Origin: Halorussus limi
Lineage (GTDB): Archaea > Halobacteriota > Halobacteria > Halobacteriales > Haladaptataceae
Length of the DNA stretch: 64,000 bases
Direction of reading: 5' to 3'
Assembly: GCF_023238205.1 (NCBI RefSeq)
Contig: NZ_CP096659.1
Coordinates: forward strand, 1,877,626 to 1,941,625
In this document: piece by piece, positions 44,267 to 62,647 of the stretch
Layout of the letters: every line of letters begins with the position of its first letter
Numbering within the stretch: the stretch's first letter is position 1
Program-made: the position numbers and the translations under genes
The notes under the pieces: generated by a model
What the model was told of the DNA's origin: nothing
Seen by the model: the letters and a program-made list of their open reading frames with translations, nothing else
Database searches by the model: none

Positions 44267-45225
44267 ACGCTGCGGTCCCCGTCGCAATCGCGCTCGCCCT
44301 CGACGCCGCAATCGCGGAACCCCCGCGCCGACTCCACCCCGTGGCGCTGTTCGGGTCGCTGGTCGCCGTCTTCGACCGCGAGTGGTCCCGGCCCCGAATT
44401 GCGGGTCTCGCCGTCGCCGCCGCGCTCCCCCTGCTGGCGGCCGCGACGGTCGCGCTCGCGGTCGAAGTGGCGGTCCGGCTACACCCCGTCGCGGGCGCGC
44501 TCGCGGCCGGAATCGTCGTCTTCGCCGCGACCAGTCTCCGCATGCTCACGGAGACGGCGACCGAGGTCGTCGCCGCGACCGAGACCGACCTCTCGGCCGC
44601 CCGCGAGCGCCTCCGGTGGTTGGCGGGCCGGGACGCCGCCGACCTCTCGGCCGCCGAGGTCCGGAGCGCCGCGGTCGAGAGCGCGGCCGAGAACCTCGCC
44701 GACGGCGCGGTGGCGGCCCTGCTCGCGTTCGCCCTGTTGGCCCCGGTCTCACTGCCCGCCGGGGCCGCGGCCGCGGTGTGGGTCAAGGCGGTCAACACCC
44801 TCGACTCGATGTTGGGCTACCCCGACAAGGCACACGGCACCGCGAGCGCCCGCCTCGACGACGCGGTCATGTGGATTCCCGCCCGCGTGAGCGCGGGACT
44901 GCTCGCGGTCGCGGCGCTCGTACCCCTGTCCGGCGCGGGCGCGCGTCGCCGCCTCGCGTCGCTGTCGGCCGCCCGCCGGTGGGCCGCGGCCCCGCCCTCG
45001 CCCAACTCCGGATGGCCGATGGCGACGCTCGCGGCGGTCGTCGACGCACGCCTCGAAAAGCCGGGCGTCTACGTCCTGAACCCCGACGCCGCGCTCCCTT
45101 CGGTCGAAACCTCGCGTGCCGGGGTCCGGGTCGTCCGGGCCGCGGGCGTCCTCGCCTTCCTGCTCGCGGCGCTCCTCGCGGGGGTCGGATACGCGTTCGC
45201 GCCGGAGGTGGTCGCGTGGCTCTGA
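44263..45225 (+). CDS. cbiB: Adenosylcobinamide-phosphate synthase CbiB
   Basis: 320 residues from ATG 44263 with about five helices. Family motifs EPPRRLHPVALFGSL, AAVESAAENLADG and NTLDSMLGYP identify CbiB. It joins aminopropanol phosphate (from CobD) to adenosylcobyric acid. Overlaps the HAD gene by four bases and cobS by ten. Confidence 0.93.
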   Translation: MNAAVPVAIALALDAAIAEPPRRLHPVALFGSLVAVFDREWSRPRIAGLAVAAALPLLAAATVALAVEVAVRLHPVAGALAAGIVVFAATSLRMLTETATEVVAATETDLSAARERLRWLAGRDAADLSAAEVRSAAVESAAENLADGAVAALLAFALLAPVSLPAGAAAAVWVKAVNTLDSMLGYPDKAHGTASARLDDAVMWIPARVSAGLLAVAALVPLSGAGARRRLASLSAARRWAAAPPSPNSGWPMATLAAVVDARLEKPGVYVLNPDAALPSVETSRAGVRVVRAAGVLAFLLAALLAGVGYAFAPEVVAWL

Positions 45226-46037
45226 CCGCGGTCCCGAGTCGCACTCGGGAACTCGTCGGACGGCGTCTGACGGCGGTTCGGGGCGCGCTCGGCTTCCTCA
45301 CCCGCCTGCCGACCGGCCGGAGCGAGGCGGCGTGGACCGCGTTCAGCGAGACCCCTGCCGCCTTCCCGGCGGCCGGGTGGGTCGCGGGCGCGCTGGCCGC
45401 GACCCCGTTGGTCGCCGCGCAGTTCCGGGCGCTCCCGGCCCCGACCGTCGCGTTCGGCTACCTGCTCGCGCTCTACGCCGTCACCGGCATCAACCACGCC
45501 GACGGCGTCGCCGACCTCGGCGACGCCGCGGTCGTCCACGGCGACCCGGAGCGACGCCGCGCGGTCCTGAAGGACACAGAGGTCGGCGTCGGCGCGGTGC
45601 TGGCGCTCTCGCTCGTCCTCGCGGGTCTCGCGCTGGCCGCGCTGGCGCTGGCGGGACTGCCCGCGGCCGCGCCCCGGACCGCCGCGGTCGGCGTCTCCGG
45701 CGCAGTCGCTATCGCCGTCGCCGCGGAGGTCGGCGCGAAACTCGGGATGGCCGCGCTGGCTTGCCTCGGCGACCCCGCCTTCGAGGGACTGGGGTCGGCG
45801 TTCACCGACAACGCCCCGGCCGCGCTGGTCGCGCCGGTCGTCGTCGCGGCCCCGGTCGCCCTGCTGGGCGTCCCGGCGGTCGCGGCGCTCGGCGGGGCGC
45901 TGGCGGCCGCGCTCGGCGTCCTCCGGTGGTCGCGGACCAACCTCGGCGGGGTCAACGGCGACGCCTTCGGCGCGGCCAACGAACTCGCCCGCCTCGCGGG
46001 CCTGCATCTGGGGGTGGTCGCGTGGACGCTCTCGTGA
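45216..46037 (+). CDS. cobS: Adenosylcobinamide-GDP ribazoletransferase CobS
   Basis: 273 residues from GTG 45216, mostly hydrophobic. [10 protein letters not shown] at the N-terminus, [15 protein letters not shown] (metal-binding DG-D motif) and [18 protein letters not shown] near the C-terminus are characteristic. It joins GDP-activated cobinamide to alpha-ribazole, the last assembly step. Confidence 0.94.
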
Positions 46038-46615
46038 TGTGCGGCGGCCGGGGCACCCGCCTCGACGCTCCGACCGAGAAACCGCTGTTCGAGGTCGGCG
46101 GGCGGCCGATGGTCGCCCGCGTCGCCGACGCCCTCGCCGAGAGCCGAGTCGAGAGCGTCCGCGCGGTCGTCTCGCCTCACGCGCCCGAGACCCGGAAATT
46201 CGCGGACGGCCGCGACGACCTCGCCACCGTCGAGACGCCGGGCGAGGGCTACGTCGCCGACCTACAGGTCGCGCTGGAGGCGGTCGAACCGCCGGTCCTG
46301 ACCGTCGCCGCCGACCTGCCCCTGCTCGACGCCGACGCCGTGAACGCGGTCCTCGACGCCTCCGACACGGAGACCGACCGTCGAGACGACGGCGGCCGGC
46401 CCTCCACGACGGTCTGCGTCCCGGCCCAACTCAAGCGCGCTCTCGGCGCGAGCCTCGACACCGCCTTCGAGCGCGACGGCCGGGAACTCGCACCGACCGG
46501 AGTGAACGTCGTCGCCGAAACGGAGAGAGAAACCATGTACGAGACTTACGACGCGCGACTGGCCGTGAACGTGAACCGACTCGCAGACGCCGACCTCGCG
46601 GAGGGTCTGCTGTGA
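46022..46615 (+). CDS. cobY: GTP:adenosylcobinamide-phosphate guanylyltransferase CobY
   Basis: 197 residues from GTG 46022, overlapping cobS by 16 bases. Nucleotidyltransferase start [28 protein letters not shown] (about 3-30) and [13 protein letters not shown] metal site. CobY is the archaeal non-orthologous replacement of bacterial CobU and activates cobinamide phosphate with GTP. Confidence 0.92.
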
Positions 46616-47637
46616 GACTGCTCCTGTTCGCCGGGACCACCCGGACCGCCGAAATCGACGGGATAAGCGCCGCGGGGGCCGACCCCGAGGCGATGGTGTG
46701 GACGCCGAGCGCCGACGCCGAGATTCTGGAGTACGGCGAACCGGTCCGCGCGCCCGAGGTCCCGGTCAGTCCCACGGGGTGTCCGACGCCCGCGCTCGCG
46801 ACCCGCGCGGTCCGAGAACTCGCCGACTTCGAGACCGGCGTAGTGGACGCCGGACTCGCCGAACCCACCGCCGCGCCCACCGTCTCGGTCGGCGCGCGCC
46901 CCGGCGAGGACGTGCGCGAGTCCGACCCCGTGCCGACCGCGCCGGGTGCCTACGCCGCCGCCCGGCAGTTCGGCCGACAGTTTCCCGACGACGAGGTCAC
47001 GGTCGCCGAGACGATTCCCGGCGGCACGACCACCGCGCTCGGGGTCCTGACCGCGCTGGGCGAGGAGCGGGGCGTCTCGTCGTCGCTCCCCGACAACCCC
47101 ATCGAGCGAAAGCGCGAGGTGGTCGCGGAGGCGCTCGACGCCAGCGGATTGGAGTCGGGCGACGCCGCGGGCGACCCCCGGTCGGCGGTCCGGCGCGCGG
47201 GCGACCCGGTGCTGGCGAGCGCCGCGGGGTTCGTCGTCGGGGCCGCCCGGACCGGCACCGCGGTGACGCTGGCCGGCGGCACCCAGATGCTCGCCGTCGC
47301 CGCCCTCGCGCGCCACGCCGGGGTCGAGCGACCGCTCGCGCTCGCGACGACGACGTTCGTCGCCGACGACCCCGCCGCCGACCTCCGGGGCGCGGCCGCC
47401 GACTTCGACCTCGACCTGACCGTCGCCGACCCCGGGTTCGAGGAGTCGGACCACCCCGCGATGGCGAGATACGTCGCCGGAGAGGCCAAGGAAGGCGTCG
47501 GGATGGGCGGGGCCTTGGCGCTCGCCGAGCGAGAGGGAATCGAGATGGCCCGCGTCCGCGACCGGATTCGGACGCTGTACGACGAACTGGTCGAGGGCGA
47601 ACCGGCCCCCGCGGGACGCGACGATGGACCGCGATAG
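46612..47637 (+). CDS. cobT: Archaeal CobT-like nicotinate-nucleotide/dimethylbenzimidazole phosphoribosyltransferase
   Basis: 341 residues from GTG 46612, GTGA overlap with cobY. The archaeal CobT group signatures [41 protein letters not shown] and [12 protein letters not shown] are present. It should make alpha-ribazole phosphate or a related lower-ligand nucleotide for CobS. Confidence 0.88.
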
Positions 47638-48634
47638 CGTCCGGGAGGTCGGCCGAGTGCCCCACGGCGGGAGCGACGACCCCGACCTGCTCGACTTCAG
47701 CGCGAACACCAACCCGCGGACGCCGCCCGGGACCCGCGAGGTCTACGCCGACGCCCTCGACGCGTCCCGGTCGTATCCGAACGACGACTACCCCGAGTTC
47801 CGGGCGGCGGCCGCCGACTTCGCGGACTGCGACCCCGACGCGGTCGTCCCCACGCCGGGCGGTCTGGCGGCGCTCCGACTCGCGTTCGCCGTGAGCGTCT
47901 CGCCCGGCGACTCGGTGCTGGTCCCGTTTCCCAGTTTCGGCGAGTACGCCCGCGAGATTCGCCTGCAGGGCGGGCGACCGGAGTTCGTACCCCACGACGA
48001 ACTGCTTGACGCCGACCCCCGGGACCACGCCGCGGTCGTGGTCTGCAACCCGAACAACCCGACCGGCGACGCCTACGACCCCGGCGCGCTCCGCGAGTTC
48101 GCGGCCGAGTGCCGAGAGAGCGACGCCCTGCTCGTCGCCGACGAGGCGTTCCTCGGGTTCACCGACCGCCCCTCGCTCGCGGGCACGCCGGGCGTCGCCG
48201 TCGCGCGCTCGCTGACCAAACTCTTCGGCCTCCCGGGTCTCCGGGCCGGGTTCGCGGTTGCGACCGGCGAGGTCGGCGCGGACCTCGCTACCGCACGGCG
48301 GGCGTGGAGTTGCGGGACCCCGGCGGCCCGCGTCGGCGCGCACTGCCTCCGAGCGGACGAGTTCGTGGCCGAGACCCGCGAGCGCGTCCGCCGGGAGCGC
48401 GCCCGGATGACCGACGCCCTCGGCGAGGAGTTCGAGGTCCACCCATCCGAGTCCCCCTTCCTCCTGCTCGACGCAGGGGAGCGCGACCCCGCGGAAATCG
48501 TCCGGCGCGCCCGCGAACGTGGCGTCGCGGTCCGCGACGCCACGACGTTCCGGGGACTCGACTCCCACGTCCGGGTCGCGGTCCGGACGCCCGGCGAGAA
48601 CGACCGCCTGCTGGAGGTCCTCGGCGATGTCTGA
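47624..48634 (+). CDS. cobD: L-threonine-O-3-phosphate decarboxylase CobD
   Basis: 336 residues, class I/II PLP aminotransferase fold. [20 protein letters not shown] and the PLP lysine K199 in [14 protein letters not shown]. It makes (R)-1-amino-2-propanol phosphate for CbiB. Overlaps cobT by 14 bases and cbiZ by eight. Confidence 0.9.
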
Positions 48635-49445
48635 GGACTCCTCGGGCGTGTTCGAGACCACCGTCAGCGAGGGCGTCCTCCGGGTCCGCCGGGAGGGCGC
48701 GCGGTGGCTCTCGACCGGGTGGGCGGGCGGCGAGTGTCGCGCCGACGCGGCCGACAACGTCTCGGTCCCGGAGGGGTTCGACCGCACGGACCTCGACGCG
48801 TACATCGCCGAGCGCCGGCGGGCGGCGGGGTTCGAGGGTTCGGGACCCGCGCTTCTCACCGGCGTCGAGTTGCGCCACGCCCGCGGCGCGCGACTGGGGC
48901 CGGTCGCGGCGGTGGCGACCGCCGGCGTCTCGAACCCGGCCGCGCTCCCGACCGACCCCGAGGACGCGCGCGCCGACCGGTCGGGCGAGCGCGCCGAGCA
49001 GTCGTGCGGTCCCGCCGACGCGTCGGCGGACGCCGCCGGTCCGGACGGGTCGGAGACGCCCGAGGTCGGCACCGTCAACGTCGTCGTCGGCACCGAGCGG
49101 TCGCTGGCCGACGGCGCGTTGGCGAACCTGCTCGCGGTCGCAGTCGAGGCCAAGACCGCGACCCTGCTCGCGGAGACCGGCTTTCCGGGCACGACAAGCG
49201 ACGCGGCCGTCGCGGCCTGCGACCCGGCGGGCGAGCGGGTCGCCTTCTCGGGGAGCGCCACCGAGGTCGGGGCCTGCGCGCGGGCCTGCGTCCGCGAGGC
49301 GGTGCGCGCGAGCCTCGACTCGCGGTACGGCGAGGGCACCGGCGCGACGGTTCCCGAGTCGGTCGCCGACGCGGAGTACGGCGTCGCGACCGACCGACGT
49401 GCGGCGGTGTTCCGTCCGGCGGAACGCGAACGAGACGACGCGTAG
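48627..49445 (+). CDS. cbiZ: Adenosylcobinamide amidohydrolase CbiZ
   Basis: 272 residues. WLSTGWAGGECRADAADNVSVPEGF, LTGVELRHARGARLG, VATAGVSNPAA and TVNVVVGTERSLADGALANLL are the conserved CbiZ blocks. It removes the aminopropanol arm from salvaged cobinamides, giving cobyric acid that CbiB can use. It carries an Ala/Asp/Ser-rich insertion (about 112-145) not needed for the fold. Its presence marks salvage of incomplete corrinoids from outside. Confidence 0.92.
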   Translation: MSEDSSGVFETTVSEGVLRVRREGARWLSTGWAGGECRADAADNVSVPEGFDRTDLDAYIAERRRAAGFEGSGPALLTGVELRHARGARLGPVAAVATAGVSNPAALPTDPEDARADRSGERAEQSCGPADASADAAGPDGSETPEVGTVNVVVGTERSLADGALANLLAVAVEAKTATLLAETGFPGTTSDAAVAACDPAGERVAFSGSATEVGACARACVREAVRASLDSRYGEGTGATVPESVADAEYGVATDRRAAVFRPAERERDDA

Positions 49446-49480
49446 AGACTGAAATTTGATGCTTTAACGAACATATACAC

Positions 49481-50083
49481 ATGCCAGAGACAGAGAAAAC
49501 CGACTCCGACGACGGCGATAGCATCGAACCGGCCGACCCCGACGAGTTCGGTCTCGTACAGGTCTGGTGGGGCGACGGCAAGGGAAAGACTACGGCGGCG
49601 CTCGGCATGGGGTTCCGGGCGGCGGGCCACGGCTACCGGGTCCACCTGCTCCAGTTCATGAAGGGCGGCGCGGACAGCGTCGAGGACTCGCGCGGCGAGT
49701 ACGCCGCCATCGAGGCCCTGCCGACGTTCACCTACGAGACGACCGGCGAGTACGGGTGGCACGGCTTCTCGGACGGGAGCGACGACGACGAACACGCCGC
49801 TCGGGCGCGGGCGGCGCTCGCTCGCGCCCGCGAGGCCGCCGACGAGGGCTACCACATGCTGATTCTCGACGAGGTGCTGTACGCCGCCAACCGAGGACTG
49901 GTCGAACCGGACGACGTGCGCGAGTTGGTCGAATCGAAGCCCGACGACCTCGAACTCGTCCTGACCGGGGGTCACGACCGCCCCGAGTACGTCACCGACC
50001 TCGCGGACCTCGTGACCCGCGTCGAGAAGGAGCGCCACCCCATCGAGGACGGACAGGGCGCGCGGAAGGGAACCGAGTACTGA
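49481..50083 (+). CDS. cobA: Cob(I)yrinic acid a,c-diamide adenosyltransferase (CobA/BtuR type)
   Basis: 200 residues. The P-loop GDGKGKTTAALG is at 31-42 and ILDEVLYAANRGLV is the Walker B-like region. It adds the 5'-deoxyadenosyl group to reduced corrinoids. An acidic N-terminal stretch of about 22 residues is haloarchaeal. A CTTTAACG element at about 49461-49468 suggests that it can also be transcribed separately from the operon. Confidence 0.93.
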   Translation: MPETEKTDSDDGDSIEPADPDEFGLVQVWWGDGKGKTTAALGMGFRAAGHGYRVHLLQFMKGGADSVEDSRGEYAAIEALPTFTYETTGEYGWHGFSDGSDDDEHAARARAALARAREAADEGYHMLILDEVLYAANRGLVEPDDVRELVESKPDDLELVLTGGHDRPEYVTDLADLVTRVEKERHPIEDGQGARKGTEY

Positions 50084-51042: not shown

Positions 51043-53571
51043 TCAGTCCTGCCGTCCGGCCGGGGTGCCGGACGGCGACTCCGTGACCGCTTCGGGAGTC
51101 GCGTGGACGTAGCGCGTCCAGAGCAACAGCAGACTCGGGAGGACGAAGATGGCCACGACGAACGACAGCGACAGCGCGAGGACGACCAGCGTCCCGAAGC
51201 TCCTGAGTTGGGGCGAGGGCGACAGCAGGAGCGCGCTGAACGCGCCGGTCGAGGTCAGCGTGCTGCCGAACAGCGCGCCGCCCGTGCCCGTCACGGCCTC
51301 GCGGAGCGCGCGGTAAGCGTCCCGGCCCGCGTCGAGTTCCTGCGCGAACCGGTCGCTGATGTGGATGTTGTAGTCGATGCCGAGGCCGATGACCAGACTC
51401 ATCAGCAGCGACGTGAGCAGGGTCAGCGGCACGTCCAGCAGGTACATGCCGCCGACGACGAGCGCGGTGACGAGCGCGATGGGGACCACCGTAATCGCGC
51501 CGAGCGAGGCGCTCCCCTCGGCGATTCGGTAGACGACCATCAGCATGACGAACACCGCGGCGAGCGCGATTACCAGCGTGGTCAGGATGCTGTCGGCGGT
51601 CTGGGACGACTCCGCCTCGCTGACGGTCGCCGCGCCGACTGCGGTCGCGGTCAGCGCGTCGCCGTCGTCGTCGACCGCGGCCGCGACGGCGCGCATCTCG
51701 TCGGCCTGCGTCCCGTACTTCGCGTCTGGTTGGATGGGTACGACCATCCTGAGCGACCGGAACTCGCCGCTCGCAGTCCGCTCGATTACGCGGCTTGCCT
51801 CCTCGGGGGCGGCGTCGTAGAGCGCGGCGTAGACTTTTCGGAGATTCCGGTCGGGCACGCTGTCGCCGTCGGTGTCGGCCTCGCGGAACGTCTCGGCGAA
51901 CGCCTCGTCGCGGGCGGCCACCGACTCCATGACGGTCAGCGGCGAGACGAACGGCACCGACCCCGACCGCTCGAAGACGACCTCGCTGTCGGCGGCGCGC
52001 TGGCGGCCCTCGCGGAGGCGTTCGAGCGTCTTCGGGTCTGTCACGTCGCCCTCGACGAGAATCTGGGAGATTCGGCGGTCGCTCTCGTCGGCCGACCGGT
52101 AGCGCTCGTCCACGAACGCGCTGTTCTTCTCGTACTCCGTGACCTCCCACGCGAGCGGTTCGGGGAGGTCCTGTTTCCACTCGGCGACGCCGTCGTCGCC
52201 CTGCTGGAACGCCTTGCGGTCGAGTTCCGTCCACGCGAGACCGCTCGCCGCGCCCGCCACGAGCGCGACGACGACGACGGCCGGCGCGGCCCTCCGCGCG
52301 AGGTCGGCGCCGCTTCCCAGCAGGGGTTCGAGGAGTCTGGTCTTGCCGAGCGGTCGCTTTCGTCGGTCGAGACCGACTCGCTCGAGCAGACTGTCGACGC
52401 TCACCTTCAGCGCCGGGACGATGGTCACGAAGATGACGAACGCCGAGACGACGCCGAGGGTGATGCCGACCGAGAGGTCCTTGATGAGGTCGAACTCGTT
52501 GGTGACGTTCGACATGAAGCCGACCGCGGTCGTCACCGTGACGAGACCGACCGCGACGGCGACCGACGACAGCGACCGACTCATCGGCCCGCGGATGTCG
52601 TCGCCTTCGCCGCGCTCCTCGCGGTAGCGCATGAAGACGTGAAGCCCGTAGTCGACGCTGAGTCCGACGATGAGGACCGGACCGATGATGAGCGTGAACC
52701 CGGCCGGAATCTGAAGCCAGCCGAGGATGCCGAACATCCAGACGACCGACAGGACGACTCCCACGAAGCCGACGACCACGTCCACGAGGTCCCGATAGGA
52801 GAACGCGAGGACGGCCAAGATGGCCGCGAGCGCGGCGGGGAGTATCAACTCGAAGGTGTCCTGCTGAGTCTGCTTGCGGTAGACGCTCTGGGCGTGGGGG
52901 CCCGTGGTGAAGTGACCGTCCGCCTCGTCGGCCTGCTCGTAGAGAACGCGAGTCGCGGGCGTCCCCTGCGCCCGCTGACCGTCCTCGCCCGCGGTCCGGA
53001 ACCGGAAGACCATCCGGCGACTCGTCGCGCTCGCGGTGCCCGGTTCGTAGTCCTTCGGCAGGAGTTCGAGCGCGGGCGACCCCTCCGAGAGCGTCTGTTT
53101 CACGGTCCTCTCGACTTCGGCTTCGCCGGCCGATTCGAGCGCCGCGATTTGGTCGCTCAGCGACGCGGACTGGCTCCCGGCCAGTCGCTTGGCGACGAGG
53201 TTCGAGACGCCGACGACGCCGCCCCGGTCGGGGAGCGCCCCGGCGACCGACTCGTTGCTCCGGACCGCCTTCTGGTACCGGAGCGAGTCGAGCAGCGACG
53301 ACTTCGAGAGGACGTTTCCGTCCGTGTCGCGGACGTAGACGGGGGTCGGCGACCCGCCGCTGTCGTTTCGCTGGGCGTAGTTGTCCTGAATGTAGAGTTG
53401 CTTCTGTGCGACCTCCGTGTCGCCGAACGCGTCGCTCCCCGTCGCCTCGCTGGAGAGTTGGAGTTTCGTGACGCCGGCGCCCACGCCGGCCGTCAGCAGG
53501 AGCATCAGGACGACGACGACGAGGCTGTGTTCGGTGACGAATCGGGCCGGCCTCTCGAAGAGGCGTTTCAT
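51043..53571 (-). CDS. RND-superfamily (MMPL/HpnN-like) transporter
   Basis: 842 residues. Two homologous halves, each with one leading helix, a large extracellular domain (about 35-230 and 440-640), and five helices ending with the sterol-sensing-like block; the first half contains FTLIIGPVLIVGLSVDYGLHVFMRYREE, the second LMSLVIGLGIDYNIHISDRFAQE, with the proton-relay aspartates (GLSVDYG, GLGIDYN). Archaeal members probably move lipids or hydrophobic compounds. No membrane-fusion partner exists or is needed. GGAGGT lies 5 bases before the ATG. Confidence 0.9.
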   Translation of the reverse strand: MKRLFERPARFVTEHSLVVVVLMLLLTAGVGAGVTKLQLSSEATGSDAFGDTEVAQKQLYIQDNYAQRNDSGGSPTPVYVRDTDGNVLSKSSLLDSLRYQKAVRSNESVAGALPDRGGVVGVSNLVAKRLAGSQSASLSDQIAALESAGEAEVERTVKQTLSEGSPALELLPKDYEPGTASATSRRMVFRFRTAGEDGQRAQGTPATRVLYEQADEADGHFTTGPHAQSVYRKQTQQDTFELILPAALAAILAVLAFSYRDLVDVVVGFVGVVLSVVWMFGILGWLQIPAGFTLIIGPVLIVGLSVDYGLHVFMRYREERGEGDDIRGPMSRSLSSVAVAVGLVTVTTAVGFMSNVTNEFDLIKDLSVGITLGVVSAFVIFVTIVPALKVSVDSLLERVGLDRRKRPLGKTRLLEPLLGSGADLARRAAPAVVVVALVAGAASGLAWTELDRKAFQQGDDGVAEWKQDLPEPLAWEVTEYEKNSAFVDERYRSADESDRRISQILVEGDVTDPKTLERLREGRQRAADSEVVFERSGSVPFVSPLTVMESVAARDEAFAETFREADTDGDSVPDRNLRKVYAALYDAAPEEASRVIERTASGEFRSLRMVVPIQPDAKYGTQADEMRAVAAAVDDDGDALTATAVGAATVSEAESSQTADSILTTLVIALAAVFVMLMVVYRIAEGSASLGAITVVPIALVTALVVGGMYLLDVPLTLLTSLLMSLVIGLGIDYNIHISDRFAQELDAGRDAYRALREAVTGTGGALFGSTLTSTGAFSALLLSPSPQLRSFGTLVVLALSLSFVVAIFVLPSLLLLWTRYVHATPEAVTESPSGTPAGRQD

Positions 53572-53783: not shown

Positions 53784-54560
53784 TTACACGTCGGGAGTCT
53801 CCATGATGCGGGGGACGCCCGCCGCGGTGATGGTCTCGCCGACGAGGTACGACGCGGCGGGACTTGCGAGGAACTGGGCGAGGTCGGCTATCTCCTCGGT
53901 CGTGCCGATTCGCCGCTCGACCTCCTCGCGGTCGATGTCGTCGGCGCTGACGCCCATCTGGCTCTCGACGCCCGGCGTGGCGACGAACCCGGGCGCGATG
54001 CAGTTGACCCGCACGTCGTCGCCCGCCCACTCGAACGCGAGCGTCGAGGTGAGGTTGATGACGCCCGCCTTGGCCGCGCCGTAGTGGCTCATGTGGGGCG
54101 ACCCCTTCTGGCCCGCGACGCTGGCGAGGTTGATGACCGCGCCGCCGCCGTCCTCGCGCATGTGTTCGCCCGCGACCTGCGTGCAGTGGAACGTCCCGTG
54201 GAGGTTGATGTCCACGATGGTCTCCCATCCGTTCTCGCTGATGTCGGCGAACGGGGCCATGAAACTCGCGCCCGCGTTGTTCACCAGCACGTCGATGCCG
54301 CCGAACTCCTCTACGGTCGCGTCCACCAGCGCCTCGACGGCGTCGCGGTCGGTCACGTCGCACTCCACCGCGAGCGCGCTCCCCTCGCGGTCGCTGTCCT
54401 CGATGCCCTCCGCGACCGGTTCGACGTTCTCCTGCTCGCGCGAGCAGACCACCACGTCCGCGCCGTCGGCCGCGAACCGCTCGGCGATGGTCCGACCGAT
54501 GCCGGAACTCGCGCCCGTGACGATCGCGGTGGCGTCGCCGACGCCGAACTGATCTCTCAT
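53784..54560 (-). CDS. Short-chain dehydrogenase/reductase (FabG-like)
   Basis: 258 residues from ATG 54560. NAD(P)-binding TGASSGIG (about 15-22), NNAG (about 92-95) and the catalytic Ser-Tyr-Lys with SHYGAAKAG. C-terminal FLASPAASYLVGETI-TAAG is classical FabG type. The substrate is probably a 3-oxo- or other hydroxyacyl thioester. It is divergent from the acyl-CoA ligase gene, and the 140-base gap between them is AT-rich with two promoters. The open frame upstream covers that gap and is rejected. Confidence 0.87.
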   Translation of the reverse strand: MRDQFGVGDATAIVTGASSGIGRTIAERFAADGADVVVCSREQENVEPVAEGIEDSDREGSALAVECDVTDRDAVEALVDATVEEFGGIDVLVNNAGASFMAPFADISENGWETIVDINLHGTFHCTQVAGEHMREDGGGAVINLASVAGQKGSPHMSHYGAAKAGVINLTSTLAFEWAGDDVRVNCIAPGFVATPGVESQMGVSADDIDREEVERRIGTTEEIADLAQFLASPAASYLVGETITAAGVPRIMETPDV

Positions 54561-54700
54561 TCGCGACCCTCCGCGGTCCGTCGGCCAATAGCGTTCCTTA
54601 CCATTGTTAACTACGACAGCGAATACTCGCCCGCCGTTAATAAATGTGGGCGCGGTTTTGCAATCGTTATATTGATTTAGGTTGCTAGTCATTAGCTCTC

Positions 54701-56260
54701 ATGGACAAGTCCGCGTTCGGCGAGGACGCACGTTCGGGCAACGTCGCGCGCCTCCACGACGAGACGGCGGAGCGCCACGCCGACGAACTAGCGCTGGAGA
54801 TGCACGGCGCTGAAATCACTCACGGTCGACTTCGGGACCGCACGGCCCGGTTCGCGGGCGGACTCGGCGAACTCGGGGCCGACGCGGGCGACCGAGTCCT
54901 CCTCTACCTGCCGAACTGCCCCGAGTACGTCGTCGCCGCGCTCGGGACGCTCAAGGCCGGTGCGGTCGCGTCGCCGATGAACCCCCAGTACAAGGCCCGC
55001 GAAATCGGTCACCAACTCGCCGACACCGGGGCGTCGGTCGTCGTCACCCACGTCGCGCTCCGAGACCACCTGACCGAGGCCCTCCGGGAGACAGACCGGA
55101 GTCCGACCGTCGTCACGGTCGGCGACCCCGACGATATCTCGGACGGCGACGTGGCGTTCGAGGACGTGGATGGCGACCCGACCACCGTCGAACGCGAGAG
55201 CAACGACGTCGCACTCCAACCGTACACCAGCGGGACGACCGGCCAACCGAAGGGCGTCCTGCTCACCCACCGCAACCTCCGAGCGCAGGCGTTCTCGGGG
55301 TTCGAGTTGGTCGACGTGGAACCGGACGAGGACCGGAGTCTCGCCGTCCTACCGCTGTACCACATCACCGGTTTCGTCCACTCGACGTGGCAGACGCTGA
55401 TTCGGGGCGGCGCGGTGTACGTGCGAAACCCCGCCGAGTGGGACGCCGAGGACGCCATGCGGACCATCGAGCAGGAGAGCATCACGGGGTTCATCGGCGT
55501 CGCGGCGATGTACGTGGACCTCGTCAACCACGAGGCGTTCGGCGAGTACGACCTGTCGAGTCTCCGCGAGACCGGACAGGGCGGCGCGAAGATGCCGGTC
55601 GCGGTCCAGCAGGAGTTCGAGTCTGTCGCGGGCGTTGACACGTGGGAGGGGTACGGCCTCACCGAGACGACGGCGGCGACCCACACCGGCGCGGCGACGA
55701 CGTTCGGGCACAGACTGGGCACCATCGGCCAACCGCTCCGGATGACCGACTGCAAGATAGTAGACGAGAGCGGCGAGGAGGTCCCGCCGGGCGAGGAGGG
55801 CGAACTGCTGGTCCGCGGCCCGCAGGTGATGAAGGGGTACCACGACCTGCCCGAGGCGAACGACGCGGCGTTCACCGAGGCGGGGTACTTCCGGACCGGC
55901 GACGTCGCGCGGCGCGACGGGGACAACTACTACGAGATAATCGACCGGAAGAAGCACATGATAAACACCGCGGGGTACAACGTCTACCCGAGCGAGGTCG
56001 AGGAGTTGCTCTTCGAACACGATGGCGTCGCGGACGCCGCCGTGGTCGGTGTCCCGGACGAGCGCCGGGGCGAGACGGTCAAGGCGTTCGTCGTTCCCGC
56101 CCCGGACACCGAGGCGACGCCCGAGGACCTCAAGCAGTTCTGTCTGGACAACCTCGCGGAGTACAAACACCCCCGCGAAGTCGAGTTCGTCGAGGAACTG
56201 CCCCGGACCGCGAGCGGCAAGGTCCAGAAGTTCAAACTGGTCGAGGGCGAGGAGCGCTGA
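54701..56260 (+). CDS. AMP-forming fatty-acyl-CoA ligase
   Basis: 519 residues, ANL superfamily. P-loop-like YTSGTTGQPKG (175-185), GYGLTET, YFRTGDVARRDGDNYYEI and the C-terminal lysine K507 in RTASGKVQKF. It activates a carboxylic acid to its CoA thioester in two steps via the acyl-adenylate. Its start is 141 bases from the SDR start, and the HAD gene follows two bases after its stop codon. Confidence 0.92.
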   Translation: MDKSAFGEDARSGNVARLHDETAERHADELALEMHGAEITHGRLRDRTARFAGGLGELGADAGDRVLLYLPNCPEYVVAALGTLKAGAVASPMNPQYKAREIGHQLADTGASVVVTHVALRDHLTEALRETDRSPTVVTVGDPDDISDGDVAFEDVDGDPTTVERESNDVALQPYTSGTTGQPKGVLLTHRNLRAQAFSGFELVDVEPDEDRSLAVLPLYHITGFVHSTWQTLIRGGAVYVRNPAEWDAEDAMRTIEQESITGFIGVAAMYVDLVNHEAFGEYDLSSLRETGQGGAKMPVAVQQEFESVAGVDTWEGYGLTETTAATHTGAATTFGHRLGTIGQPLRMTDCKIVDESGEEVPPGEEGELLVRGPQVMKGYHDLPEANDAAFTEAGYFRTGDVARRDGDNYYEIIDRKKHMINTAGYNVYPSEVEELLFEHDGVADAAVVGVPDERRGETVKAFVVPAPDTEATPEDLKQFCLDNLAEYKHPREVEFVEELPRTASGKVQKFKLVEGEER

Positions 56261-56262
56261 CC

Positions 56263-56973
56263 GTGCCGGGCGACGAACCGGCGACGGACTACCGGGCGGT
56301 GTTCTGGGACATCGGCGGCGTCGTCCTCGACCCGGACTCGGTCCGGGAGGCCCACGAGGCGTTCGTCGGGAGACTGGTCGAGGAGTACGCCCCCGAACGC
56401 TCGCCCGAGGACGCGGTAGAGACGTGGCGTCGCGCGGTCGGGTCGTACTTCCGGGAGCGCGACGGGACCGAGTTCCGGTCGGCCCGGACCGCCTACGACC
56501 GCGCCGTCGCCGAGATAGCCGGGCAGTCGATACCGGAGTCCGAGTGGCGACCGCTGTTCGAGGCGGTGACCACCGAGATTTTGCGGCCCGAACCCGGCGC
56601 GGTCGAGGCCGTCGAGCGACTGGCCGACAGCGAGTTGCACGTCGGCGTCGTCAGCGACGTGGACACCGCGGAGGGACTCCGGATTCTGGAGACGTTCGGG
56701 GTCCGTGACCGGTTCGACTCGATAACCACCTCCCAGATGGTCGGCCGGACGAAACCCGACCGCCGGATGTTCGAGACCGCCCTGCAGGAAGCCGACGCCG
56801 CGCCGGCCGAGGCGGTCATGATAGGCGACCGGTACGACCACGACGTGGCGGGCGCGAAGGAGGTCGGACTCGCGACGGTCGCGTACGGGGCCGACGACGG
56901 CCCGGCGGTCGATTACCGCGTGGAGGACCTCCGCGAGGTACTGGACATCGTCGGCGCGAGTCGGAAAACGTGA
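56263..56973 (+). CDS. HAD-superfamily hydrolase resembling the ACAD10 HAD domain
   Basis: 236 residues from GTG 56263, two bases after the ligase stop. Motifs: FWDIGGVVLD (nucleophile Asp in DIGGV), VGVVSDVDT (motif II), GRTKPDRRMF (Lys) and MIGDRYDHDVAGA (motif IV). DxGGV is the variant seen in soluble epoxide hydrolase N-domain and ACAD10-type HADs. With the convergent acyl-CoA dehydrogenase and the kinase-like gene it recreates the domain set of human ACAD10. Confidence 0.82.
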   Translation: MPGDEPATDYRAVFWDIGGVVLDPDSVREAHEAFVGRLVEEYAPERSPEDAVETWRRAVGSYFRERDGTEFRSARTAYDRAVAEIAGQSIPESEWRPLFEAVTTEILRPEPGAVEAVERLADSELHVGVVSDVDTAEGLRILETFGVRDRFDSITTSQMVGRTKPDRRMFETALQEADAAPAEAVMIGDRYDHDVAGAKEVGLATVAYGADDGPAVDYRVEDLREVLDIVGASRKT

Positions 56974-56994
56974 GGGACCGGTCTCAGCGCGCTC

Positions 56995-58212
56995 TTACTC
57001 GTCGTCGAACCGGAGCAGGTGTTCGACCTCGCTCCGGTCGGTGTCCTCGAAGGCGTTTCGCGCGATGACGCGCTTGTGGACCTCGTCCGCGCCGTCGATG
57101 ATGCGGAACTGGCGGACGTTCTCGTAGAAGTCCGCGAGCGGCAGGTCCTTGCCGATGCCGTTGCCGCCGCAAATCTGGACCGCGGTGTCGATGGCGTCCT
57201 GCGTGACGTTCGCCGCGAACGTCTTGCTCATCGCCACCTCGATGCGGGCCTCGTTGCCGGCGGCTATCTGACGGGCGGCGTGGCGGACCATCGAGCGGAC
57301 CGCGTGGAGGCGGGTCTCGGCCTCGGCGATTTCGAACCGGAGCGCCTGCTTGTCCGAGAGCGTCCCGTCGAACGCGCGGCGCTCCTCGGCGTAGGCCTTC
57401 GCCACGTCGAGGGCGCGCTCGGCCATCCCCGAGAAGCGCATGCAGTGGGTCAGGCGCGCCGGGCCGAGGCGCTGCTGGGCGATGGCGAACCCGGCGTTCT
57501 CCTCGCCGAGCAGGTTCTCCTCGGGCACGCGGACGTCCTCGTACCGAATCTCGGCGTGACTCGCGCCGGTGAGGCCGCCGCCGAGGTGCGGGATGTCGCG
57601 CACGATTTCGACGCCCGGCGTGTCGGCGGGCACGAGGAAGATGGAACAGCCCTGATACGGGTGGGCGTCCTCGTCGGTCCGGGCCATCACCAACAGTACG
57701 TCGGCCTCGCTCCCCTGCGTGGTCCACCACTTGTGGCCGTCGATGACCCACTCGTCGCCGTCTTTCTCCGCACTCGTGCGAATCATCTTCGGGTCCGACC
57801 CCGCGCCCTGCATGGGTTCAGTCATCGAGAACCCCGACCGGGCCTCGCCCTCGGCCAGCGGTCGGAGCCACTCCTCCTTCTGGTCGTCGGTGCCCACCAG
57901 TTCGAGGGTGTGCATGTTGCCCTCGTCGGGCGCGTTCGCCCGGACGGCCGTCGCGCCGAGGAGGCTCCGCCCGGCCGCCTCGAAGACCGGCAGCATCTCG
58001 CGGAAGTCCATCCCCAGACCGCCGTACTCCTCGGGAATCTGTGGGCCGTACACGTCGTACTCCCGCGCCGTCTCGCGGAGTCGGCGGACATCGTCGCGGG
58101 GAACCGGCCCGTCGCCGAGGTACTCGCGCTCGACCGGAACGACCTCCTCTCGGACGAACTCTCGGACGCGCTCGGCGACCTCTCGGCCTCGCTCGGGGTC
58201 GTCGTACTTCAT
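56995..58212 (-). CDS. Acyl-CoA dehydrogenase, ACAD10/11-like
   Basis: 405 residues. FAD/substrate segments RSGFSMTEPMQGAGSDPKMI, VIDGHKWWTTQGSEADVLLVMARTD, and in the C-terminal domain RLGPARLTHCMRFSGMAERALD and QICGGNGIGKDLPLADFYENVR. R-I-IDGADEVHKRVIAR matches the large ACAD10/11 group, in which the usual catalytic Glu position lies elsewhere. It runs convergently to the HAD gene and divergently from the kinase-like gene, with 163 bases for a shared promoter region. Confidence 0.88.
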   Translation of the reverse strand: MKYDDPERGREVAERVREFVREEVVPVEREYLGDGPVPRDDVRRLRETAREYDVYGPQIPEEYGGLGMDFREMLPVFEAAGRSLLGATAVRANAPDEGNMHTLELVGTDDQKEEWLRPLAEGEARSGFSMTEPMQGAGSDPKMIRTSAEKDGDEWVIDGHKWWTTQGSEADVLLVMARTDEDAHPYQGCSIFLVPADTPGVEIVRDIPHLGGGLTGASHAEIRYEDVRVPEENLLGEENAGFAIAQQRLGPARLTHCMRFSGMAERALDVAKAYAEERRAFDGTLSDKQALRFEIAEAETRLHAVRSMVRHAARQIAAGNEARIEVAMSKTFAANVTQDAIDTAVQICGGNGIGKDLPLADFYENVRQFRIIDGADEVHKRVIARNAFEDTDRSEVEHLLRFDDE

Positions 58213-58375
58213 GTGCCCAACCTCTCCGCAACGATGTAAAAGTATTTCCCCGATTCTATTACCCTCGTAAGTTCTTTACCGGAGTTGCGCGTACAATCGT
58301 CGTGAAAACGCCGGACCGATGCGACGGCGCGCGGTCCGTCGGAACCGCCACCGACCGAACGCGAAGGACGAACTC

Positions 58376-59554
58376 ATGACAGGTGAAGAATACGACGACG
58401 CCACGACCGAGGACGAACGCGACGACTCTGCGACCGGGACCGGTCACGCGACCGACGACGACTCCGCGACAGACGACGGTCACGCGACCGACGCCGAACG
58501 CGACTACTTCGAGCGACTCGTGGACCGGCCCGCGCTCCGGGACTACCTCGCCGACCGTCTCGGGGACGCCGACGAGTTCGCCGTCAGCCACCACGCGGAG
58601 GGCCACTCCAACGAGACGCTGTTCGTGACGTGGGGCGACCGCGAACTCGTCGTCCGGCGGCCGCCGCCGGGCGAGACGGCCGACACCGCCCACGACGTGC
58701 TTCGGGAGTACCGGGTGATGGACGCGCTTCAGGACACCGCGGTCCCGCTCCCCGGGACCGTGCTGGCCTGCGAGGACCACTCGGTCGTCGGCAGCGACTT
58801 CTACGTGATGGAGCGCGTCGAGGGCGACGTCCTCCGCCACGCCGAACCCGACCGCTTCGGGACGCCGGCGGCCCGCCAGCGGGTCGGCGAGGAGTTGGTC
58901 GACACGCTCGCGGCCGTCCACGCCGTCGACTACGAGGCGGTGGGTCTCGGCGAGTTCGGCCGCCCGGAGGGCTACACCCGGCGGCAGGTCGAACGCTGGA
59001 CCAAGCAGCTGGAGTGGGCGTTCGAACGGACCGCCGACGAGCGGACGGTGCCGAAACTCCGGGAGGTCGGGGATTGGCTCGCCGAGGAGTGCCCGACCGA
59101 CCACGAGCGGACGCTGGTCCACGGCGACTACAAACTCGACAACGTGCTGTTCGCGCCGGGCGCGCCGCCGGAACTGGCCGCGGTGTTCGACTGGGAGATG
59201 GCGACGCTCGGCGACCCGCTGGCGGACCTCGGGTGGATGCTGTCGTACTGGCGCGACCCCGGCGACCCCGACCCGGCCACGCCCGAACTGACCGCGACGT
59301 TCATGGCGGCCGAGGGCTACCCGACCCGGCGGGAACTCGTCGAGCGCTACGAGCGGGCGACCGGCATCGAGTACGAGAACGACCGGTTCTACCGGGCGCT
59401 CGCGGTGTACAAACTGGCCGCGCTCGGCGAGATGTTCTACCGGCGCTACCTCGAAGGAAACAGCGACGACCCGATGTATCCGAAGATGGAACACCGGGTG
59501 CCGGACCTCGCCCGGCGCGCCGAGCGCATCATCGACGGCGACGAACCGCTGTGA
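58376..59554 (+). CDS. Aminoglycoside-phosphotransferase-like kinase (ACAD10/11-type partner)
   Basis: 392 residues from ATG 58376. A Thr/Asp/His-rich N-terminal tail (about 1-40) is disordered. The kinase core has GHSNETLFVTWGDRELVVRRPP (ATP site with the Lys-equivalent Arg/Val region), catalytic LVHGDYKLDNVLF (HGDxxxxN, about 249-261) and VFDWEMATLGDPLADLGWML (DWE metal site). Fused or adjacent to acyl-CoA dehydrogenases, such kinases phosphorylate 4-hydroxyacyl-CoAs. A start 19 codons upstream is less likely. Confidence 0.87.
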   Translation: MTGEEYDDATTEDERDDSATGTGHATDDDSATDDGHATDAERDYFERLVDRPALRDYLADRLGDADEFAVSHHAEGHSNETLFVTWGDRELVVRRPPPGETADTAHDVLREYRVMDALQDTAVPLPGTVLACEDHSVVGSDFYVMERVEGDVLRHAEPDRFGTPAARQRVGEELVDTLAAVHAVDYEAVGLGEFGRPEGYTRRQVERWTKQLEWAFERTADERTVPKLREVGDWLAEECPTDHERTLVHGDYKLDNVLFAPGAPPELAAVFDWEMATLGDPLADLGWMLSYWRDPGDPDPATPELTATFMAAEGYPTRRELVERYERATGIEYENDRFYRALAVYKLAALGEMFYRRYLEGNSDDPMYPKMEHRVPDLARRAERIIDGDEPL

Positions 59555-59767: not shown

Positions 59768-61732
59768 ATGACAGTTCCTGACATCCAGCGCGTGACCGTT
59801 CTCGGAGCGGGGAACATGGGACACGGAATCACCGAGGTCGCCGCGATGGCGGGGTACGACGTGACGATGCGCGACATCGAGGCCGACCTCGTGGCCGACG
59901 GCTACGAGGACATCCGGTGGAGTCTGGAGAAGTTGGCCGAGAAGGGCCGCCTCGACGAGTCCGCCGAGGCGGTACTCGACCGCATCGAGACGACGACCGA
60001 CTTGGAGGAGGCGGTAGCCGACACCGACCTCGTGGTCGAGGCCGCGCCCGAGCGCATGGACCTCAAGAAGGACATCTTCGGCGACCTCGACGAGTTCGCG
60101 CCCGACGACGCGATACTCGCGTCGAACACGTCGAGTCTGAGCATCACCGAGATGGCGACCGCTACCTCGCGGCCCGAGCGAGTGGTCGGGATGCACTTCT
60201 TCAACCCGCCGGTGAAGATGGACCTCGTGGAGGTCATCTACGGCGAGGAGACCGCCGACGACACCGCCGAGACCGCCTACGAGTTCGTGGAGTCGCTCGG
60301 CAAGACGCCCATCTACGTCCGGAAGGACGTCAACGGCTTCGTGGTCAACACGGTCCTCGGGCCGTTCACCGACGAGTCGGCGTGGATGGTCTCGAACGGC
60401 GAGGCGACGATTCGGGAGGCCGACGCCGCGATGGTCCACCGCCGGGGCTACCCGATGGGTCCCTTCGAACTCGCGGACCTCACCGGCATCGACGTGGGCT
60501 ACCACGTCCGGAAGGAGGCGGGCCGACCGATTCCGCCGATTACCGAGGAGAAAGTCGAGAACGACGAACTCGGCCGGAAGTCCGGCCGGGGCTTCTACGA
60601 GTACGAGGACGGGGAGGGCGTGAACTACGAACCCGGCGACGGCGAGGAGTTCGACACCCTGCGCGTCGAGGCCCGGATGATAAACGAGGCCGCGCGACTC
60701 GTCGGCGACGACGTGGCGACGCCCGAGGAGATAGACACCGGAGTCAAACTCGGTCTCGGCTTCCCGGAGGGCATCTGCCGGCGCGCGGACAAAATCGGTC
60801 TCGACGCGGTCCTCGACAAACTCCGGACCCTCCGCGAGGAGACCGGCGAGGACCGATTCGACCCGGACGACTACCTCGTGGAACTGGTCGAACAGGGCCG
60901 GACCGGCGAGGAAGCGGGCGCTGGCTTCCACGAGTACGGCGGTTCGGGCGGCGACGGACCGGGCGACTACCGTCTGCTGAACTACGACCTATCGGAGGAC
61001 GGCCTGCTCGCAGTCGAACTCGACCGCCCGGAGCGCATGAACGCGCTCTCGGGCGACTTGCTGGGCGAGATAGACGACCTACTCTCGTCGGTCGACACCG
61101 ACGAGGTGCGGTGCGTCACCTTCGAGGGCGCGGGCGACCGGGCGTTCAGCGCCGGGGCCGACATCGGCGGGTTCGCGGACATGGACCCGACCGACGCGAT
61201 GGACGTGACCCCCGCGTTCGAGACGGTCAACGACTTCGAGCGCCCGGTAATCGCCAAGGTGGACGGCTACTGCCTCGGCGCGGGGTTGGAACTCGCGCTG
61301 GCCTGCGACCTCCGCATCGCGACCGAGGACTCCCAGTTCGGGTCGCCCGAGATCGGTCTCGGCCTCATCCCTGGCGGCGGCGGCACGCAGCGCCTGCTCC
61401 GACTGCTCGGCGAGACCCGGGCGAAGGAACTCGTGTTCCGGGGCAACCGCATCGACGCCGACCGCGCCGAGGAGTGGGGACTGGTCAACCGGGCCGTCCC
61501 CGAATCGGAGTTCGAGGACACCGTCTCGGCGTTCGTCGAGGACGTGCTGGAGGGGCCGCCGGTCGGCCTGAAGGTCGCCAAGAAGGTGATGAACGAGGGC
61601 GCGGACGCCAGCCTCGACGCCGCGCTCGCCATGGAGAGTCAGGGCTTCGGCCTGCTGATGAGCACCGACGACGTGCGCGAGGGGACCGCGGCGTTCCGCG
61701 ACGACCGCGACCCCGAGTTCACCGGGGAGTGA
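59768..61732 (+). CDS. 3-hydroxyacyl-CoA dehydrogenase / enoyl-CoA hydratase fusion
   Basis: 654 residues. N-terminal 3-hydroxyacyl-CoA dehydrogenase (about 1-385): GAGNMGHG (13-20), NTSSLSIT, HFFNPP (catalytic His) and NGFVVNTVLGPF. C-terminal crotonase (about 400-654): RPERMNALSG, FSAGADIGGF and GLIPGGGGTQRL with the GGG oxyanion region. The order dehydrogenase then hydratase is opposite to bacterial FadB and common in archaea. It starts a three-gene operon with the thioesterase and MaoC genes. Confidence 0.94.
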   Translation: MTVPDIQRVTVLGAGNMGHGITEVAAMAGYDVTMRDIEADLVADGYEDIRWSLEKLAEKGRLDESAEAVLDRIETTTDLEEAVADTDLVVEAAPERMDLKKDIFGDLDEFAPDDAILASNTSSLSITEMATATSRPERVVGMHFFNPPVKMDLVEVIYGEETADDTAETAYEFVESLGKTPIYVRKDVNGFVVNTVLGPFTDESAWMVSNGEATIREADAAMVHRRGYPMGPFELADLTGIDVGYHVRKEAGRPIPPITEEKVENDELGRKSGRGFYEYEDGEGVNYEPGDGEEFDTLRVEARMINEAARLVGDDVATPEEIDTGVKLGLGFPEGICRRADKIGLDAVLDKLRTLREETGEDRFDPDDYLVELVEQGRTGEEAGAGFHEYGGSGGDGPGDYRLLNYDLSEDGLLAVELDRPERMNALSGDLLGEIDDLLSSVDTDEVRCVTFEGAGDRAFSAGADIGGFADMDPTDAMDVTPAFETVNDFERPVIAKVDGYCLGAGLELALACDLRIATEDSQFGSPEIGLGLIPGGGGTQRLLRLLGETRAKELVFRGNRIDADRAEEWGLVNRAVPESEFEDTVSAFVEDVLEGPPVGLKVAKKVMNEGADASLDAALAMESQGFGLLMSTDDVREGTAAFRDDRDPEFTGE

Positions 61733-61733
61733 G

Positions 61734-62213
61734 ATGAGCGAGGAGTTCGCCGCGGGCGGCGACTCGCCCGCGGACGCGACGGCCGAGATGCAGGCGTTCG
61801 TGGACCGCCACGGCTACCTCTCGTGGCTCGGAGTGACGGTCGAGTCGGTCGAGCGCGGCCGACTCGTCATGTCGGTCCCGTACGACGAGAAGTTGGTCAA
61901 CCCCGACCCCGACGGCACCCCCGTCGTCCACGGCGGCATCGCCGCGACGCTGGTGGACACCGCCAGCGGGTTCGCACTGCGGACCACGTTCGAGGACCCG
62001 GCCGAGGCCGCGCTCACGACCACCGACCTGAACGTCTCGTACCTCCGACCCGCGACGGGCGACCTGCGGGCCGAGGCCGAGGTGGTGCGGGCCGGCGGGT
62101 CGATGGGCGTGACCGAAGTCACCGTCACGAGCGAGCGACCCGACGGCGAGGGGGCGACCGAAGTCGCGGTCGGACGCGCGAGCTATCGGCTGTTCCGGGA
62201 GGGAGAGACGTGA
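61734..62213 (+). CDS. PaaI-family hot-dog thioesterase
   Basis: 159 residues, one base after the fusion gene's stop. LVNPDPDGTPVVHGGIAATLVDTASGFAL (about 54-82) is the hot-dog active-site helix with the HGG motif and its catalytic acid. It probably hydrolyses acyl- or aryl-CoA thioesters, freeing CoA when intermediates accumulate. Confidence 0.9.
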   Translation: MSEEFAAGGDSPADATAEMQAFVDRHGYLSWLGVTVESVERGRLVMSVPYDEKLVNPDPDGTPVVHGGIAATLVDTASGFALRTTFEDPAEAALTTTDLNVSYLRPATGDLRAEAEVVRAGGSMGVTEVTVTSERPDGEGATEVAVGRASYRLFREGET

Positions 62214-62647
62214 CGCTGTCGTTCGACGAACTCGACGTGGGCCGCCGGATTACCACCCCGTCCCGGACCGTCACCGAGGCCGACGTGACCAACTTCGCGG
62301 GCGTGAGCGGCGACTTCAACCCCCTCCACACGAGTCGGACCGAGGCCGAGGCGTCCGACTTCGGCGGGCGCGTGGCCCACGGCGCGCTCGTGTTCTCGAT
62401 GATGACCGGACTGGCGCGCCGCGCCAGCGACCGGCGCGCCGACGTGGTGGCGTTCTACGGCGTGGACCGACTCCGGTTCACCGCGCCGGTCGAGTTCGGC
62501 GACACGATTCGCGTCGAGATGGAACTGGTCGAGAAGGACCCGAAGGACCATCCGACCGCGAGCGGCGTCGTCCGGTACGACGCCGAGGTGCTGAACCAGC
62601 GCGACGAGACGGTGCTGTCGTGCGAACTGCTCTCGCTGGTGAAGTAG
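62210..62647 (+). CDS. MaoC-family (R)-specific enoyl-CoA hydratase
   Basis: 145 residues from GTG 62210, GTGA overlap with the thioesterase gene. FAGVSGDFNPLHTSRTEA (about 31-48) is the hydratase-2 motif with catalytic Asp and His, and RVAHGALVFSMMTGLA follows. It gives the R isomer of 3-hydroxyacyl-CoA and so complements the S-specific crotonase upstream. Confidence 0.92.
   Translation: MTLSFDELDVGRRITTPSRTVTEADVTNFAGVSGDFNPLHTSRTEAEASDFGGRVAHGALVFSMMTGLARRASDRRADVVAFYGVDRLRFTAPVEFGDTIRVEMELVEKDPKDHPTASGVVRYDAEVLNQRDETVLSCELLSLVK

Follow-up and report, generated by a model that had tools for sequence, protein, structure and literature searches.

A 64,000-nucleotide stretch of DNA from the haloarchaeon Halorussus limi (assembly GCF_023238205.1, contig NZ_CP096659.1, forward-strand positions 1,877,626 to 1,941,625; hereafter the window, in whose own numbering all coordinates are given) encodes an acyl-CoA dehydrogenase (ACAD) next to a kinase of the aminoglycoside phosphotransferase (APH) fold, and this pair is a haloarchaeal variant of the system formed by ACAD10 and ACAD11 in mammals and by LvaA and LvaC in Pseudomonas. 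By transfer from these relatives, we predict that the pair very probably catalyzes the phosphorylation of 4-hydroxyacyl-CoAs followed by elimination of the phosphate. As a two-enzyme system that would channel 4-hydroxyacyl-CoAs into beta-oxidation, we give this reading a probability of about 0.82. Diagnostic residues, trees and predicted fold agree in placing both proteins in this group, as the initial annotation of the window had proposed.

In mouse ACAD11, the 4-phosphate is bound by R626, H634 and R637, which belong to an HCMR motif next to FAD; the motif is exclusive to ACAD10/11 and LvaC, and the catalytic base is an Asp and not the usual Glu (PMC12440821). The window ACAD (56995..58212, minus strand; ACAD C-terminal domain, 137 bits) has R248, R253 and H256-C-M-R259 exactly aligned with this signature: its motif RLGPARLTHCMR, residues 248-259 (57436..57471, minus strand), corresponds to R626, R631, H634 and R637 of the mouse protein. 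Likewise, D373 in IIDGADEVH (D373-GADEVH, 57076..57096, minus strand) aligns with the catalytic D753 of mouse ACAD11. The window ACAD holds every residue that mutagenesis of ACAD10/11 found necessary for phospho-elimination, i.e., R626, H634, R637 and the catalytic Asp. The HCMR motif is invariant in all of the haloarchaeal ACAD orthologs examined, and it is lacking in the other ACADs of the same genome whose loci were long enough to check. It is also present in 80 of 80 bacterial relatives, which were gathered by patterns drawn from elsewhere in the protein, the motif being excluded.

Ranked by sequence against the Protein Data Bank (PDB), the window ACAD matches 4hr3 best (244 bits), then ACAD11 (223-224 bits), with ordinary ACADs at 198 bits or less. 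An AlphaFold2 model with a mean predicted local distance difference test score of 86, the input alignment of which was built from the motif-bearing ACAD family, gives 4hr3 (Z 44.6), human ACAD11 (43.0) and mouse ACAD11 (42.1) as the nearest folds, and the next structure follows at 40.2.

In a phylogeny with ordinary dehydrogenases, the comparison on which the initial annotation had staked its proposal, the window ACAD groups with ACAD10/11 and LvaC. The motif-bearing ACADs split from the ordinary ones with 100% support in the Shimodaira-Hasegawa-like approximate likelihood ratio test, and the same split is obtained without the motif and active-site columns. LvaC was placed in the tree by way of DUF6285 genes searched for in Pseudomonas genomes. 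In five Pseudomonas loci, the genes run kinase, DUF6285, ACAD, short-chain dehydrogenase/reductase (SDR) and CoA ligase, which is the lvaABCDE order, and on this gene order we take the five loci to be lva operons and DUF6285 to be LvaB. Their ACAD motif, RLAPARLTHCMR, is nearly identical to that of the window. The resulting tree has three lineages, namely LvaC together with Thermus and a Variovorax protein (91%), the haloarchaea (100%), and ACAD11 with most of the bacteria (99%); once LvaC is added, their branching is a three-way fork. An earlier tree had placed the Thermus and Variovorax proteins as sister of the haloarchaeal ACADs (85%), a grouping that dissolved into the fork when LvaC was added. 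Of the bacterial ACADs found, that of Thermus is the closest (44-45% identity).

Some haloarchaea have extra HCMR-type ACAD copies with 62-66% identity, which were seen in genomes G030 (C10:125950), G079, G182, G201 (C1:3360901 and 3362469, in tandem), G230 and G240. These copies suggest subfunctionalization.

The kinase (58376..59554, plus strand; Pfam APH, 171 bits) is of the ACAD11 type. It keeps D220 and N225 of ACAD11 as D251 and N256 in the catalytic loop HGDYKLDN (59120..59143, plus strand), the CoA-contacting R176 in RRQVERWTKQ (YTRRQVERWTKQ, residues 200-211; 58973..59008, plus strand) and, in REY, the Arg next to the alpha-C Glu. The last of these is R86 of the ACAD11 paper, which is the chain residue directly before the alpha-C Glu and is numbered two lower in the chain. 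Its best PDB matches are 9o56 (230 bits, 38% identity), 3dxp (188 bits) and the ACAD11 kinase (172-175 bits, 34% identity), and the next solved APH structure scores 68 bits. In the kinase tree, LvaA and the Thermus kinase form a clade of their own (100%), and the window kinase is ACAD11-like. A first version of this tree had paired two long branches, the Thermus kinase and an outgroup, and it was rebuilt without that outgroup. A Thermus-type kinase was considered as the donor of the haloarchaeal kinase and was rejected, as the Thermus kinase falls with LvaA.

The initial annotation had remarked that an LvaB-like partner is not seen in the window. This was borne out and extends to the whole genome, in which a search for DUF6285 found none. 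Among the loci examined, DUF6285 neighbors only kinases of the LvaA/Thermus type, and it is present in none of the 80 bacterial ACAD loci and in none of the haloarchaeal loci. Because the window kinase is of the ACAD11 type and DUF6285 is tied to the other kinase subtype, no LvaB is expected, and we reject the idea that its absence marks an incomplete pathway. As a separate observation, one cluster (L169, genome G351), arranged like that of Pseudomonas citronellolis, has a DUF6285 gene (55 bits, approximately 6784-7074) between the kinase and a histidine phosphatase. No lvaB homolog was reported in the P. citronellolis levulinate cluster (PMC6692424), and one may have been overlooked there.

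The ACAD and the kinase have identical patterns of presence across 40 related genomes: 21 have both genes (the module-bearing genomes) and 19 have neither. The formal chance of two identical sets is about 8e-12, a figure that makes the evidence look stronger than it is, as many of the 40 genomes are close kin. In 16 of 20 haloarchaeal loci, the two genes lie side by side and point away from each other, and the pair usually shares a divergent promoter region. In a wider sample, the ACAD was found in 20 of 247 genomes of the phylum, and all 20 belong to the same order. The fusion of 3-hydroxyacyl-CoA dehydrogenase and enoyl-CoA hydratase (HADH/ECH; 59768..61732, plus strand; 3HCDH_N 224 bits, ECH_1 192 bits), to which the initial annotation had assigned the downstream beta-oxidation, adjoins the kinase elsewhere too, lying downstream of it in Haloferax mediterranei and several more haloarchaea.

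By analogy with ACAD10/11 and LvaA/LvaC, the pathway would probably run as follows. A ligase would form the CoA ester of a 4-hydroxy acid, which could itself come from a 4-keto acid such as levulinate reduced by an SDR, and the kinase would phosphorylate the 4-hydroxyl of the 4-hydroxyacyl-CoA with ATP. Asp373 of the ACAD would take the C2 proton, with a hydride moved through FAD; the phosphate, held by R248, H256 and R259, would be expelled and the hydride returned, giving a 2-enoyl-CoA with no net oxidation. The adjacent HADH/ECH fusion and a MaoC-type hydratase (62213..62647, plus strand; MaoC_dehydratas, 103 bits) would take this product onward. A hydrolase of the HAD family, discussed below, would probably hydrolyze or limit the 4-phosphoacyl-CoA as an accessory brake.

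Several points weigh against this reading. The identity of the genes, their diagnostic residues, their phylogeny, co-occurrence and synteny are established here, and the activity of the kinase and ACAD, the substrate and the parts played by the SDR, ligase and HAD are predicted. The window ACAD has 37-40% identity to LvaC and 34% to ACAD11, and the haloarchaeal ACADs are a separate lineage nested in neither. The kinase is only 24-26% identical to LvaA. At these distances from LvaA and LvaC, the substrate may differ. The SDR (53784..54560, minus strand; Pfam adh_short, 215 bits), a candidate 4-oxoacyl-CoA/4-hydroxyacyl-CoA dehydrogenase, is not exclusive to the module: at E<=1e-80 it occurs in 30 of the 40 genomes, some of which lack the module, and we no longer regard it as a strict part. 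A quick tree places it, with moderate support, apart from the LvaD clade. The HAD is missing from nine of the 21 module-bearing genomes, and H. mediterranei might owe its growth on levulinate (see below) to another route than these ACAD and kinase genes.

The initial annotation had stated that the SDR and CoA ligase genes are also here. Both are present, but the SDR appears to lie outside the LvaD clade and the ligase is an optional cassette. The best NCBIfam match of the SDR is the broad glucose 1-dehydrogenase subfamily, and it has 37-41% local identity, over 192-214 residues, to LvaD of the five lva operons; it is linked to the module in most haloarchaeal loci. The ligase (54701..56260, plus strand; AMP-binding, 326 bits) is AMP-forming, and NCBIfam types it with the long-chain acyl-CoA ligases. 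It is adjacent in five Halorussus-type loci only; besides the locus of the window, its orthologs are next to the HAD in four loci (87-92% identity). A second haloarchaeal SDR type, nearer to the clade that contains LvaD, was seen downstream of the kinase in loci L021, L022, L024, L026 and L028 and beside the ACAD in L074; no close copy of it was found in the window genome.

The substrate would be levulinate, 4-hydroxyvalerate or another 4-hydroxy acid. In H. mediterranei ATCC 33500, which we take to be the same type strain as DSM 1411, the order SDR-HAD-ACAD-kinase-HADH/ECH is present on plasmid pHME132, where the HAD, ACAD and kinase genes are E6P09_RS18915, E6P09_RS18920 and E6P09_RS18925. 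On levulinic acid, strain DSM 1411 reaches a growth rate of 0.097 per hour (PMC12455835), and we found no paper in the open-access literature that assigns genes to this growth. Together with the LvaC-like motif, the H. mediterranei case makes levulinate a plausible substrate. The same chemistry could instead serve another natural hydroxyacyl-CoA, for example that of a branched or isoprenoid-derived acid or of the long-chain 4-hydroxy acids that lipid oxidation yields, and not 4-hydroxyvaleryl-CoA. That would suit the deep lineage of the haloarchaeal ACADs, an SDR that appears unlike LvaD, an optional ligase of the long-chain type and the varied chain lengths accepted by ACAD10/11 (PMC11342911). 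However, H. mediterranei has the module and grows on levulinic acid, an SDR accompanies the pair in many loci of haloarchaea and bacteria, and nothing in the sequence excludes short substrates. We consider this alternative a serious one, with somewhat less than an even chance.

The HAD (56263..56973, plus strand; Pfam HAD, 80 bits) is a candidate phosphatase or brake on the phospho-intermediate. Its motif I, DIGGVVLD in the context FWDIGGV (D16-x-G-G-V; 56308..56331, plus strand), has the nucleophile D16 and a Gly at +2. The pattern F[W/F]D[I/V]GGV is present in all 12 full-length haloarchaeal HADs aligned, so that the nucleophile is conserved and a Gly takes the place of the second Asp in DxD. 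Motifs II (S131), III (K164) and IV (GDRYDHD, 188-194), numbered as in the window protein, are retained as well. It scores 42 bits with TIGR02247 (epoxide-hydrolase-N-like; cut-off 125), which we take to be the ACAD10 HAD type, versus 100 bits with the CTE7/PH0459-like HADs. Therefore, the suggestion of an ACAD10-like HAD survives in part: the D-x-G-G-V sequence, with the first Asp only, is there, but the HMM scores rule out that the protein is the ACAD10 HAD itself. In ACAD10, too, the HAD domain lacks the second Asp of DxD; its phosphatase activity is negligible, and it holds the kinase in check (PMC11342911). By analogy, the window HAD is probably an accessory brake that hydrolyzes or limits 4-phosphoacyl-CoA, and it was likely recruited convergently, either as a regulator or as a phosphatase.

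The HAD was found in 12 of the 21 module-bearing genomes and in none of the 19 genomes without the module. Since nine module-bearing genomes lack it, it is not essential. One could also regard it as an ordinary phosphatase that travels with the CoA ligase and is unrelated to the kinase. The ligase and HAD genes nearly overlap, with the HAD starting right after the ligase end (TGA at 56258, GTG at 56263), the HAD is missing from those nine genomes, and HADs are very common, with 9-51 first-look candidates per module-bearing genome. We consider this unlikely: all 12 genomes with the HAD have the kinase, and in H. mediterranei and genomes G020, G023 and G030, in which no ligase adjoins it, the HAD still accompanies the SDR, kinase or ACAD. 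Where the ACAD has relocated, the HAD lies between the SDR and the kinase (G030) or with the SDR (G022 and G028); it is unlinked in two genomes. In addition, other phosphatase families occupy the same place in bacteria.

For example, histidine phosphatases lie beside bacterial kinase/ACAD pairs in Caballeronia, Deinococcus and Thermus and also in six of the 80 sampled loci, and one was reported in the levulinate cluster of P. citronellolis (PMC6692424). Y_phosphatase3 (PF13350) was found in six mycobacterial loci and on one Rhodococcus plasmid. In the mycobacterial loci (L101, L104, L107, L111, L124 and L149), it is directly downstream of the HCMR-type ACAD, which suggests a role on an acyl-phosphate; no ACAD11-type kinase was detected within 8 kb of these six ACADs. 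A TIGR02247-type HAD with DWGGV is immediately beside an HCMR ACAD in L094 and L099 (Nocardiopsis and Actinomadura), an unfused HAD-ACAD pair that is nearer to the HAD type of ACAD10. All 12 of the histidine phosphatase and Y_phosphatase3 matches lie within 3 kb of the ACAD, and more than half of the searched sequence is further away; as the hidden Markov models were seeded from such ACAD neighbors, this enrichment should be taken as a hint and not as a clean statistical result.

The restriction of the HAD to genomes with the kinase and the unrelated phosphatases at the same place in bacteria therefore suggest a recurrent brake. Tentatively, a phosphatase-like gene might be a recurrent accessory of the pathway, filled independently by unrelated families. 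These could be the CTE7/PH0459-like HAD in haloarchaea, the TIGR02247-type HAD in actinomycetes and Y_phosphatase3 in Mycobacteriales, and the histidine phosphatase in Pseudomonadota, Deinococcota, Planctomycetota and Acidobacteriota. If true, the HAD domain of ACAD10 would be a remnant, now fused, of such a brake, acting on 4-phosphoacyl-CoA that is toxic or traps CoA.

That the ACAD and the kinase are chance neighbors, an ordinary short-chain acyl-CoA dehydrogenase and a small-molecule (antibiotic-type) kinase, as one might gather from the generic names under which they are annotated (acyl-CoA dehydrogenase family protein, phosphotransferase family protein) and from the lack of a curated NCBIfam model at cut-off for either, is very improbable and is contradicted by the diagnostic residues, the 100% tree split, the identical presence, the conserved synteny and the fold ranking.

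All five genes named at the outset (SDR, ligase, HAD, ACAD and kinase) have Pfam or NCBIfam matches where they had been placed, and the Pfam scores of the ligase, ACAD, kinase and HAD are far over the cut-offs. They had been called a module. The HAD (plus) and the ACAD (minus) are convergent, and the ACAD (minus) and the kinase (plus) are divergent; as the strands alternate, the module is a gene cluster, but not one transcription unit. No clear operator is suggested in the 163-bp region between the divergent ACAD and kinase genes (58213..58375); a short imperfect inverted repeat and an overlapping palindrome, one of each, are all that was found there. Between the HADH/ECH fusion and the MaoC-type hydratase is a PaaI-type hotdog thioesterase (61734..62213, plus strand; 4HBT 53 bits, TIGR00369 80 bits). 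On the other side, an RND-type exporter (51043-53571) adjoins the SDR, and its orthologs are near the module in several Halorussus-type loci. Further away, genes resembling late cobalamin biosynthesis (44382-50083; CobS, CobY, CobT, an aminotransferase and a cob(I)alamin adenosyltransferase-like protein) look ordinary.

Compared with known systems, the window is like the Pseudomonas lva operon (LvaA kinase, LvaB, LvaC ACAD, LvaD SDR and LvaE ligase) in that separate kinase, ACAD, SDR and ligase genes are clustered and that the ACAD motif (RLAPARLTHCMR versus RLGPARLTHCMR) is nearly identical and the catalytic Asp is shared. It differs in having no LvaB/DUF6285, another kinase subtype, an SDR that appears to fall outside the clade of LvaD, a HAD in addition and genes on alternating strands. 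With mammalian ACAD11 and ACAD10, which are kinase-ACAD fusions, the latter with an N-terminal HAD, it shares the same families and all of the reported catalytic residues and, as in ACAD10, the pairing with a HAD having one Asp of DxD. However, the window proteins are unfused, the ACAD is in its own lineage, and the HAD is CTE7/PH0459-like and not TIGR02247. Thermus thermophilus plasmid pTT27, with SDR-ACAD-kinase-DUF6285-histidine phosphatase plus an AMP ligase, MaoC and PaaI, has nearly the same functional parts, but its kinase is of the LvaA type with DUF6285, and a histidine phosphatase is present instead of the HAD.

We found no report in the open-access literature of a pathway of the ACAD10/11-LvaA/LvaC type in Archaea. 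The pathway of a kinase plus a phospho-eliminating ACAD, described in proteobacteria and mammals, would thus extend to Archaea, in which it forms a lineage apart, is split into unfused genes and lacks LvaB. The module provides candidate genes for the use of levulinate and 4-hydroxy acids in halophilic archaea, including the bioplastic producer H. mediterranei. Finally, the free-standing haloarchaeal proteins make the role of the human ACAD10 HAD, and the general need for a phosphatase-like brake, testable.

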